Shown: piece by piece, positions 1-3,573 of the stretch
Layout: the number at the start of each line of letters is the position of its first letter
How positions within the stretch are numbered: position 1 is the stretch's first letter
Origin: Zetaproteobacteria bacterium
GTDB lineage: Bacteria > Pseudomonadota > Zetaproteobacteria > Mariprofundales > Mariprofundaceae
Reading direction: 5' to 3'
Length of the DNA: 47,329 nucleotides
Assembly: GCA_002746295.2 (NCBI GenBank)
Contig: NVWS02000057.1
Span: 1-47,329 of the forward strand
Translations under genes and position numbers: made by a program
The notes under the pieces: generated by a model
What the model saw: the letters and a program-made list of their open reading frames with translations, nothing else
Databases searched by the model: none
Told to the model about the DNA's origin: nothing

Positions 1-1070
1 AAGATTTTCCAGACCCTCTTACATGGCTTTTGGGACAAGTTGGGGAACTTCCTTTGCCAAGAAGGTCAAAGAAGAGGGCTGTCTGTAACCCGTTGATTTT
101 ACTGGCTGTCCCGTCTTAAAAGGGAAGCCGTCTTATGTATGCCTGTAAAGCATGCTCAAACCTTTTTTCTGAGACGAAAAACACGGCATTGGCAGGTCTT
201 AGAACCGACATGGATACCATTACAAAAGTGATGAGTTCTCTCAATGATGGAATGAGTATCAATGCTACTTCCCGAATATTTCAAATAAGTCGAAATACAG
301 TTAGAAGCTGGTTAGATAAGCTAGGAAACACTGTTATTATACTCTCGGTGTCAACATTTTGTTAAGCAAGTGATCGAAGGCGATGAGCTTTATACCAAGG
401 TTGATAAAAACAGCCCGCAAGATGAATCAAAAGGCTGGACAATTGTTCTTATGGATCGTGCTTCTCGCTTTATTTGGCATTTAGAATGTGGTGAAAAAGA
501 CCGTGATTTATTTATGGATGCGATGAAAGTTGTTACACAAGTTATTGAAAAAACAGGCGGACTTTTTCTATTTACGGATGGAGAGCGTCGTTATGGAAAT
601 ATGCCATGAGGTTATTCGTACTGGAAAACGAGGTCGCCCTGCCAAGACATTGGTTGAAAATGTCATTGTCCGTGTTAAAAATAAGGGGGCTCAAGCACAT
701 AAAAAAGGACCTAAAAGAGAGAAATATCAGGCACCACAACCTGAACACCCAGCAACAACACTTTCTCCTGAAAATCACGAGATTCATGCCAATCATTTGG
801 AAGCTTTTAATAGTGCATTACGACGAAAACTTTCCTGTTACAGACGTAGAACAAACACATACGCTAAGGATACAGAGAGATTGCAAACGCGACTCAATGT
901 ACACTCGGTTTTTCACAACTTTATTTGCAAGCACTTCACAACCAAAAAAGTGCCTGCTGTAGGTTTAGGAATCGTTGAAAAAGGATTTTCTATCGCTGAT
1001 ATGTTTAGAATACAGGTGCTGCCAACAGATCACCAATAAATCACATCAAACTCAACTGACCCAGTACCCT
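1..1070 (+). mobile_element. Remnant of an IS1-type insertion sequence (left end outside the window)
   Basis: The broken transposase reading frames at 135-1039 fill most of this stretch. Bases 1-134 have no clean frame but sit where the N-terminal zinc-finger coding part should be, with stops in every frame I translated. The segment after the transposase, around 1058-1070 (GACCCAGTACCC), is a plausible right inverted-repeat end, but the left end is not in the window, so neither the matching repeat nor a target duplication can be checked. The next gene, on the minus strand, ends at 1106. Confidence 0.6.
135..1039 (+). pseudogene. IS1-family-like transposase, broken by at least two frameshifts
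   Basis: Three successive frames together spell one transposase. The first (135 to about 330) has the second Cys pair of a zinc finger (YACKACSNLF) and a helix-turn-helix (SINATSRIFQISRNTVRSWLDKLG). The second (about 331-600) has the first two acidic residues of a DDE-type core, in EGDELYTKV and FTDGERRYGN. The third (about 596-1039) has EICHEVIRTGKRGRP, VKNKGAQAHKKGPKR and the third acidic residue in HANHLEAFNSALRR. The first switch needs a +1 shift near 325-333. The second, at 595-600, looks like a small deletion, because two or three residues expected between YGN and EICHE are absent. An upstream stop (the TAA at 114-116 in the first frame) is a further lesion. I expect no active enzyme. 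Confidence is high that this is a transposase relic and moderate for the IS1 family label. Confidence 0.8.
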
Positions 1071-1105: not shown

Positions 1106-3532
1106 TTACATTGCCGAATAAATAAAGTCATTGTAATCAATCACACCATCCATCGCCAATTGAAAGGCAACTTTGGCTTTGGGTTCCATGCCTGATTCCA
1201 CCGCAATGCGCTGTAACTCTTGCCCTGTCACACCATCATGAATCGCCTGACGCACCACTTCATTCACCACCAAAAATTCATACGCCATCACACGTCCTGA
1301 ATAACCTGTTTCATGGCATTCAGAGCAACCCACTGCTTCATAAAGCTGCGCAGCTTCACCAAATCCAAAGCTTTTCACCCTTGCATAAGCCACATCATCC
1401 ACAGCCACAGCTTGGCGACATTCTAAACACAGCTTTTTCAATAATGTCTGGCTCATCACACCCAACAAAGAGGGTGCAATCAAGTAGTTGGGAATATTTA
1501 AGTCATTCAATCGAATAATCGTATCAACCGCTGAATTGGTATGCAGTGTTGAAAGCATCAAATGCCCCGTCAAAGCCGCTTCAATCCCAATGGACGCAGT
1601 TTCTTCATCACGCATCTCACCAATCATAATCACATCAGGATCGTGACGAAGAACATTGCGTAGTACACGTGCAAAGGTTAGACCAATTTGATTGTTTACC
1701 TGAATTTGATTGGCATCTTTGATTTCCGATTCTACGGGGTCTTCAATCGTTAAAATATGCACGGGCATATCTGATAAAGATTTTAAAACCGCAAACAAGG
1801 TTGTCGATTTACCAGAACCCGTCGGACCTGTAACAAGAATGAGTCCATAAGGTTTGTGAGCCATGTCTGATAAGTGTTGAATATCCTCATCACGCAGCCC
1901 CAGCATATCCAAATCCACAGCCATATCTTTGTTCAACACACGCAATACCAAGGATTCACCATAAGCATTGGGAATACAGGAGACACGAAATTCATACTTC
2001 CGTTTACCATCCCGTAAAATCATACGCCCATCCTGCGGCATACGCCGTTCTGCAATATTCATCCCACTTAAGATTTTAATACGTGCCGAAATTTTCGCAT
2101 GTAAACTCTTGTCCAAGGCACTTTCAGAAATCAATTGCCCATTCAGCCGATATGCCAGAATGATTTTATTGGTCTGTGGTAAAATATGAATATCCGAAGC
2201 TTCTTTTTTCAAGCCATTGCTGATAATACGGTTCACCAAACGAACAATCGGGGCATCTTGTGTAGACTCAGTAATTTCTAATTCACTGTACTCCTCATCA
2301 CCCATATCTCCATCTTGATGCAAGAATTCACACGACAACTCATCACTGTACTCTTCTTCTTCCACATAATGATCAATTCGCGCCTTCAATTGCGAACCTT
2401 TGACCATGACTTCATGGATTTTTTTTCCTGTGGCAAAAGCAATTTGATCATAAGCTTCCAAGCCCAAAGGATCACTCAAAGCAATGGTTAAGGTGTGTTG
2501 ATCCGAGTCAATGGGTAACACTTGGTATTTTTCAATAACACTGCGCGTCACTTCACTTTCAGCCATTTCATTGATGCTATAGGTATCCAAATCCACCGCA
2601 GGCAAACGAAATTTTTTCGCCAAAACATACAACAGTTGATCCTCTGTAATCACCTCAGTGCTCAATAAAATCTCACCCAAACGTAAACCACGAACCTTTT
2701 GCTCTGCCAATGCCAGATCCAAATCCATATCTGTAATCAGCTTGGCTTCGACTAAAATTTCACCCAGCCGCAATTTTTGGTGCTTTTGAAAGTGCAATGC
2801 CGACAACAACTCTTTGGAAGTAATCACACCTGTCTCGACAAAAATAGTCCCCAGTGCTTTCTTCGAGCGGATCTGTTCTTTCAGACCTGCTTTGATTTGC
2901 ATCTGGGTTACCTGCTTTCTTTCCATCAGAATATCACCAAGCTTGATGTCCTTATGTCGCTGAACATCCAAAGCATGCTTGATATCTTTAACGGTGATTT
3001 TCCCCTGCTCTTTTAACACGACACCCAGAGGCGGCGTTTCTTTTTTTTGTAAATCAAGTGCGTTCTGAATTTCTTGTGGTGATGCTAAATTCTCACTGAT
3101 TAACAAATCACCCAATTTATCAGGCTGTTCTTCAAAATGAATACCGCGCCGATAAAAGAAAATACGTCGATAAGGGGTAAACTTATTGTTGCTAATGGCA
3201 AAGAAACCAGGCGCATGGGGCAATGCTGGATATGCCTGTACATGGAACGTTTCCGAGTGAATGGTGGTGATTTTGAGTTCTTCTAATTTTTGTTCTTGAT
3301 ACGTTGGCAAGTCATTGCTTTGCTCATTATGATGCTGACCAATATAGACAATATCTTTGGCTGACAACAATTGCTCAATCACTTGACCATCTGCACCCGT
3401 ACGAAAAAAATGCAGCTCATGCATCGCCGATGAGAAGCCCCGTAAATAACCGTCAAGCGTTTCACCTGAAAGTAAATTGATACTGACAGTTTGGGATGAT
3501 GCTTGACTGGGAGGAGAGGCAATTTTTTTCAT
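1106..3532 (-). CDS. GspE/PilB-family ATPase with six tandem MshEN-type (c-di-GMP-binding-like) motifs
   Basis: A secretion/pilus-type hexameric ATPase, 808 residues from the ATG at 3532, longer than a usual PilB (about 570). Order: an unassigned N-terminal region (about 1-135); six copies of a 24-residue motif starting near residues 139, 168, 197, 226, 255 and 284 (KLGDLL..., PLGVVL..., KLGDIL..., ALGTIF..., RLGEIL..., RLGEIL...); a T2SSE N-terminal-like domain to about 400; then the ATPase core. The core has Walker A GPTGSGKS (569-576), Walker B VIMIGEMRD (about 634-642), the His box LSTLHTNSA, and a CxxC pair plus a second CxxC pair (C702/C705, C736/C739) for a zinc site. An in-frame TTG at 3553 could add seven residues; neither start has a clear ribosome site. 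It lies alone, away from the pil cluster at 9312-16076, so it may drive a second machine (MshE-like pilus or type II secretion) or act as an alternative extension motor. The machine it serves is unknown. Confidence 0.85.
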   Translation of the reverse strand: MKKIASPPSQASSQTVSINLLSGETLDGYLRGFSSAMHELHFFRTGADGQVIEQLLSAKDIVYIGQHHNEQSNDLPTYQEQKLEELKITTIHSETFHVQAYPALPHAPGFFAISNNKFTPYRRIFFYRRGIHFEEQPDKLGDLLISENLASPQEIQNALDLQKKETPPLGVVLKEQGKITVKDIKHALDVQRHKDIKLGDILMERKQVTQMQIKAGLKEQIRSKKALGTIFVETGVITSKELLSALHFQKHQKLRLGEILVEAKLITDMDLDLALAEQKVRGLRLGEILLSTEVITEDQLLYVLAKKFRLPAVDLDTYSINEMAESEVTRSVIEKYQVLPIDSDQHTLTIALSDPLGLEAYDQIAFATGKKIHEVMVKGSQLKARIDHYVEEEEYSDELSCEFLHQDGDMGDEEYSELEITESTQDAPIVRLVNRIISNGLKKEASDIHILPQTNKIILAYRLNGQLISESALDKSLHAKISARIKILSGMNIAERRMPQDGRMILRDGKRKYEFRVSCIPNAYGESLVLRVLNKDMAVDLDMLGLRDEDIQHLSDMAHKPYGLILVTGPTGSGKSTTLFAVLKSLSDMPVHILTIEDPVESEIKDANQIQVNNQIGLTFARVLRNVLRHDPDVIMIGEMRDEETASIGIEAALTGHLMLSTLHTNSAVDTIIRLNDLNIPNYLIAPSLLGVMSQTLLKKLCLECRQAVAVDDVAYARVKSFGFGEAAQLYEAVGCSECHETGYSGRVMAYEFLVVNEVVRQAIHDGVTGQELQRIAVESGMEPKAKVAFQLAMDGVIDYNDFIYSAM
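2612..3118 (-). repeat. Six tandem 29-codon repeats inside the ATPase gene
   Basis: The Leu-Gly of each unit recurs at exact 29-residue intervals, six times. Each unit fits x-L-G-x-x-hydrophobic(2)-x-x-x-hydrophobic(2)-x4-hydrophobic-x3-L-x-x-Q followed by a five-residue spacer, which is the spacing described for the two-motif MshEN c-di-GMP-binding domain. The last unit ends in K rather than Q. Protein similarity is clear while the DNA copies have diverged, so the expansion is old and probably kept by selection. Confidence 0.85.
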
Positions 3533-3573
3533 ACTAACACGATGGATAAGCAACCCAAGCGTGTCAAGAGATC

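Follow-up and report, generated by a model that had tools for sequence, protein, structure and literature searches.

A Zetaproteobacteria-centred assembly-type ATPase with six MshEN-type motifs, best read as three two-motif units of the c-di-GMP-binding fold

The window analysed here, a stretch of 47,329 nucleotides from a marine, iron-oxidising zetaproteobacterium of the family Mariprofundaceae (contig NVWS02000057.1), codes for an orphan assembly-type ATPase with four successive parts (Table 1): an N-terminal region, six motifs of 24 residues, a single MshEN C-terminal subdomain and a T2SSE ATPase domain. Of the two possible starts the ATG is favoured, as the orthologues align from MKK... 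in sequence alignment. The Pfam matches place the MshEN C-subdomain at residues 315-400, directly after the motifs, and the T2SSE domain (PF00437) at residues 430-804. The former is the only match to PF05157 in the protein, and this family, named MshEN, covers the adjacent C-subdomain only and not the six motifs. The Walker A motif, Asp box, Walker B motif, His box and the tetracysteine formed by two CxxC pairs are intact in the full-length orthologues examined. The N-terminal 135 residues are conserved in both the six-motif proteins and their four-motif relatives; they matched no family in Pfam, and a fold search with them gave weak Sm/Hfq/Tudor-like matches. An artefact of assembly or frame is ruled out: the gene is intact in 24 genomes, and named isolates, M. 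ferrooxydans PV-1 among them, have it too.

Table 1. Features of the orphan ATPase gene and its product, in window positions.
Feature	Positions	Strand	Basis or remark
Orphan assembly-type ATPase, open reading frame	1106..3553	-	815 aa from TTG; likely start ATG at 3532, 808 aa
N-terminal unclassified region, two small beta barrels predicted	3128..3493	-	AlphaFold2 strands 14-135
Motif M1 KLGDLLISENLASPQEIQNALDLQ	3047..3118	-	weight-matrix hit, orthologue alignment
Motif M2 PLGVVLKEQGKITVKDIKHALDVQ	2960..3031	-	unit A = M1+M2; as a pair aligns with MshE 5htl residues 8-61
Motif M3 KLGDILMERKQVTQMQIKAGLKEQ	2873..2944	-	weight-matrix hit, orthologue alignment
Motif M4 ALGTIFVETGVITSKELLSALHFQ	2786..2857	-	unit B = M3+M4; unit B missing from four-motif relatives
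Motif M5 RLGEILVEAKLITDMDLDLALAEQ	2699..2770	-	weight-matrix hit, orthologue alignment
Motif M6 RLGEILLSTEVITEDQLLYVLAKK	2612..2683	-	Lys replaces last Gln; unit C = M5+M6
MshEN C-terminal subdomain, Pfam PF05157	2354..2611	-	64.1 bits, cut-off 23.1
T2SSE ATPase domain: Walker A, Asp box, Walker B, His box, two CxxC	1142..2266	-	392.8 bits

A preliminary description of this DNA had placed the gene outside the pil cluster and next to an IS relic. The first of these statements is right: the pil cluster, with a kinase, PilC and PilB, occupies 11.5-16.1 kb (pilB itself 14.4-16.1 kb), and between it and the ATPase gene (1.1-3.5 kb) lie dapD, a permease-like gene, lspA, rho and coaE, as named from their translations. 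As to the second, window positions 280-1060, which had no hit in Pfam, are a possible IS remnant: pieces of it are repeated elsewhere in the genome (152 bp at 94% on contig C10, 35 bp at 100% on contig C16). This neighbourhood is incidental, and carriage of the gene by an IS element is rejected: a relative with a 97% identical protein has trmFO in that place and no element beside the gene.

A more regular neighbour is seen in Mariprofundus, where a same-strand FimV-like gene is found 14-113 bp upstream of the ATPase gene in 11 of 12 loci (recognized by sequence likeness, with FimV_N confirmed via Pfam in one). The gene product at one locus (L121, 7468-9093), with matching genes in L037-L045, L047 and L048, combines FimV_N with a TPR-like part and is shorter than the usual FimV. 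This FimV_N/TPR-like protein is possibly a partner of the six-motif ATPase. One Mariprofundus locus examined additionally has a PilZ gene just downstream of the latter. The FimV linkage is absent in the window's genus: the window locus has dapD in that place, and two FimV_N genes lie elsewhere in its genome.

The motifs were delineated with a 24-position weight matrix trained solely on the motifs of characterised PilB/PilF proteins. Over the whole 815-aa protein its six top hits start at residues 146, 175, 204, 233, 262 and 291, a distance of 29 residues at every step, with scores of 12.5-35.5; the next best hit, at 3.6, is background. In 2000 shuffles of the motif region the best hit had a mean of 3.1 and a maximum of 16.8, and even the weakest motif lies well above that mean; a chance repeat is excluded by this comparison. 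The NCBIfam model NF053729 (c-di-GMP_motif, MshE-related) matched three stretches with 132 bits against a cut-off of 38, and at the DNA level gave four overlapping matches, each above cut-off. DUF4388 was rejected as the identity of the repeat, with 24.8 bits against a cut-off of 25, far below NF053729. The preliminary description, which had proposed six MshEN-type motifs in exact 29-residue register at 2612-3118, is thus borne out to the base, on the minus strand. It had named a missing MshEN match in profile searches or a predicted structure of a different fold lacking ligand sites as outcomes that would speak against it; both checks were run and neither outcome occurred.

The structural evidence comes from two models of moderate confidence (pTM about 0.4): an AlphaFold2 model of the N-terminal part, from an alignment of 23 sequences (mean pLDDT 73.6, pTM 0.39), and a separate one of M1-M4 (pLDDT 69.5). 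In the AlphaFold2 model each motif has a short helix that leads through a loop into a longer one, and the four-helix bundle of the solved MshEN_N structures is found in these moderately confident models. In Foldseek searches the best PDB match of the N-terminal model was MshE with c-di-GMP (5htl; E 1.7e-9, TM 0.86, 2.2 A), and its top 20 PDB matches were all MshEN/GSPII N-domains; the matches include PilB-PilZ complexes and XpsE. The top 14 matches of the M1-M4 model were exclusively MshEN/GSPII domains, mostly c-di-GMP-bound, the best ten superposing at 0.7-1.6 A over 52-60 columns with probability 1.00 and with weak E-values (best 0.13). By profile, by PDB sequence search and by comparison of the modelled fold, the six motifs belong to the MshEN/GSPII c-di-GMP-binding fold.

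The array is most readily interpreted as three units of two motifs each (M1-M2, M3-M4 and M5-M6), after which come a single MshEN C-subdomain and the motor. The stretches of the AlphaFold2 model with pLDDT below 50 inside the array are residues 191-196, between M2 and M3, and 247-254, between M4 and M5: these hinges fall between the pairs and hence support the pairing. Foldseek output carries no query ranges, so the units were placed by sequence profiles: against a profile of M1-M4, MshE aligns to M1-M2, and Geobacter PilB and the PilF GSPII-B domain align to M3-M4, with the exception of PilF GSPII-C, which spans M2-M4. By sequence comparison the last-named domain (T. thermophilus PilF, PDB 6f8l, residues 302-387) itself appears to contain three motif-like units, not two. 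The signatures of the motifs alternate, M1 being similar to M3 (mean identity 47%) and M2 to M4 (44%); M2 and M4 both have an inner Gly that never varies and begin with a residue other than Arg. In the four-motif relatives the alignment gap totals 58 residues, i.e. two motif lengths. In a tree of units, A groups with the first unit ('ab') of these relatives (90/87) and C with the second ('cd') (100/99), leaving B without counterpart; the inner forks of this tree are weak, as it uses 48 columns.

The published ligand motif, (R/K/L)LGxx..., has its Arg dispensable for binding in PilF GSPII-B (PMC11731258), and the relaxed motif of the original authors also accommodates an initial Pro and a final Lys (PMC5013675). 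Of the corresponding residues in our protein ((R/K/L)LG, L17, L21 and Q24) the Gly and Gln are kept in M1-M5, and in M6 a Lys takes the place of the Gln. Gly3 does not vary among the 15 orthologues in any of the six motifs, and Gln24 is invariant in M2-M5 and present in 14 of 15 in M1, with the flanking positions 22-23 highly variable in M1-M4. The Lys of M6 is found in all 23 sequences compared (15 of 15 orthologues and eight of eight four-motif relatives). The first positions of M1-M6 are K, P, K, A, R and R, and in the orthologues M2 and M4 begin with Pro, Ala or Ser, not Arg. Compared with random sets of positions, the six ligand positions of M1-M4 vary less (558 of 100000 sets reached as low a value); some of this conservation is structural.

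These patterns make three sites plausible, since the Gly and Gln contacts are kept, the Arg is dispensable and the relaxed motif allows both Pro and Lys; on sequence grounds, three c-di-GMP sites per subunit are likely. The family-wide Lys in M6 implies that canonical pair C may bind weakly or not at all. The earlier suggestion of several ligand sites therefore holds as far as three pairs with conserved contacts at predicted sites go, qualified by the one Gln that is Lys in all members compared; cooperativity between the sites is speculation. Alternatively, the extra units could act as a structural arm, or as a surface on which the stator or FimV or PilZ-like partners dock, having kept the MshEN fold and lost binding, such that one pair at most binds the ligand. 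The non-binding N-domain of GspE/XpsE and the Xanthomonas PilB-PilZ association are models for such a role. The M6 Lys, the M2 and M4 motifs lacking Arg and the fold matches to PilB-PilZ complexes and XpsE all suit it, as does a degenerate paralogue in M. erugo (described below). However, the invariance of Gly3 in every motif and of Gln24 in M2-M5, the excess conservation at the M1-M4 ligand positions and the precedent of Arg-independent binding in PilF GSPII-B (PMC11731258) speak for retained binding, and we regard a docking-only role as improbable, if deserving of serious attention.

The same description had called the protein a PilB/GspE-type ATPase. This is apt for the fold; the ATPase core forms a clade of its own apart from both. 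It falls short of the equivalog models for PilB (TIGR02538; 507 versus 676 bits), GspE (TIGR02533; 472 versus 630 bits) and TfpB (NF053534; 405 versus 850 bits), the PilB score being above that for GspE with both under cut-off. In a tree of the ATPase core from which the motif columns were left out, the six-motif proteins form one clade (99%), nested in a larger clade (100%) separate from PilB, GspE (whose sequences form their own 98% clade) and the receiver-fused ATPase. The latter is a second orphan PilB-like ATPase of 733 aa in the same genome (L179, 6853-9054, on contig C29), with a C-terminal receiver (REC) domain and degenerate MshEN motifs, encoded in a chemotaxis-type locus. In total the genome has four assembly-type ATPases and three of the PilT/PilU type, together with 10 GGDEF and two PilZ genes. 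The only platforms are PilC and GspF, with their genes confined to the pil cluster and the T2SS locus. With two platforms for four assembly ATPases, the motor described here must share one of them or act otherwise.

We consider it probably an auxiliary, c-di-GMP-controlled motor of the T4P/T2S type. It could instead serve a machine other than pili, with c-di-GMP bound in the same manner. The separate clade of the core, within neither PilB nor GspE, the presence of a T2SS locus with PilC and GspF as the only platforms and the fusion of the second orphan ATPase to a receiver domain in a chemotaxis locus are compatible with this. Against it, the FimV-like gene directly upstream in 11 of 12 Mariprofundus loci points to pili and pole functions, and the PilB model outscores that of GspE, albeit both below cut-off; we find such a non-pilus role doubtful.

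Of the 399 Pseudomonadota genomes sampled, 24 gave a match to all six motifs, three from the window's genus and 21 from Mariprofundus (genus g9), and other relatives in the sample match over about four motifs; coverage of other phyla amounted to 16 genomes. M. ferrooxydans PV-1, M. micogutta and M. erugo all have orthologues. The third unit was gained a single time, in the clade uniting Mariprofundus and the window's genus. The sister proteins carry two units (four motifs), more frequent in related motors than any other multiple number; these ATPases constitute a Zetaproteobacteria-centred subfamily. A second paralogue in M. erugo (L169, ~792 aa) has a decayed M3, and its M4 and M5 are apparently fused via a 29-residue deletion. 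Proteins of ~300 aa without a motor domain in Geobacter and relatives (L072-L112) display four MshEN motifs in exact 29-residue register. An exact register in more than two copies is therefore not unique to this ATPase, and arrays of more than two motifs are common, in four-motif form, among its relatives and in Geobacter proteins.

The exact register recurs in the two closest relatives (97% and 82% identical). In the Mariprofundus orthologues all steps are 29 residues except that between M3 and M4, which is 30, 31 or 35. This variable linker lies within unit B and is a point against strict pairing, though known PilB pairs have linkers of 5-7 residues. A continuous solenoid of six stacked hairpins, with overlapping or absent ligand sites and no real pairing, would accommodate both the perfect register in three genomes and these indels within a proposed pair, yet it is very unlikely given the hinges between pairs, the alternating signatures, the gain or loss of two-motif units as a 58-residue block and the linker tolerance of known pairs.

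Taking these lines together, the best explanation overall, to which we assign a probability of roughly 60%, is that of an extra ATPase with three tandem c-di-GMP-binding MshEN_N units and a motor gated by this nucleotide. The N-terminal arm would consist of three tandem four-helix units (MshEN_N x3) ahead of one MshEN_C and the motor. Each motif pair (1-2, 3-4 and 5-6) would close on one c-di-GMP, so that a subunit could hold as many as three and a hexamer 18. Binding might then alter how rigid the arm is and how it contacts the pilus or secretion base, such that the auxiliary motor, plausibly of a T4P rather than a T2S system, would be gated at high c-di-GMP, i.e. in the attached state. As c-di-GMP binding in MshE and PilF changes piliation or twitching (PMC11656802, review; PMC11731258), gating of assembly is the natural reading. 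A bolder and much less probable version is that the three MshEN_N units sharing one MshEN_C bind their three c-di-GMP molecules (18 per hexamer) with graded affinity, giving a stepwise or ultrasensitive response of the motor in bacteria alternating between a swimming state and stalked attachment on iron. In the Zetaproteobacteria, this ATPase is a candidate for coupling surface attachment to c-di-GMP. Pan-genome work has proposed that stalk attachment is under c-di-GMP control (PMC8250860); a search of its text found no mention of pili, PilB, GspE or MshE.

As a rule, the c-di-GMP receptors by which pilus and secretion motors are controlled possess a single two-motif domain. MshE of Vibrio cholerae (PDB 5htl; PMC5013675) shares with our protein the 24-residue motifs joined by a 5-residue spacer, the fold and the succession of motifs, MshEN_C and T2SSE ATPase; it differs in having one unit instead of three, Gln in both motifs and a role in the MSHA pilus system. 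PilF of Thermus thermophilus likewise has three c-di-GMP-type domains (GSPII-A/B/C) in one motor, two of which have been shown to bind, with very different affinities and no requirement for the Arg (PMC11731258). Each PilF domain has its own C-subdomain, whereas our protein has three N-units connected by 5-residue links and one C-subdomain; with its single PF05157 match it is distinct from the PilF-type series of three complete N+C domains. TfpB of Acinetobacter baylyi (PMC11656802) is a precedent for a second, phylogenetically distinct extension ATPase on one pilus system, from which ours is set apart by its score below the TfpB cut-off. The closest counterparts are the four-motif orthologues of the Zetaproteobacteria and some other Proteobacteria (e.g. 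L011-L017): these have the same N-terminal region, ATPase clade, units A and C and Gln-to-Lys change in the last motif, and differ in being without unit B (58 residues). Close relatives thus differ naturally by a single step, having the same motor with either two or three units, the third of single origin; hence the effect of extra ligand sites on a motor can be tested directly by comparing them. The six-motif ATPase is thus not a categorically new system but a clean, lineage-specific elaboration of a known c-di-GMP receptor domain.
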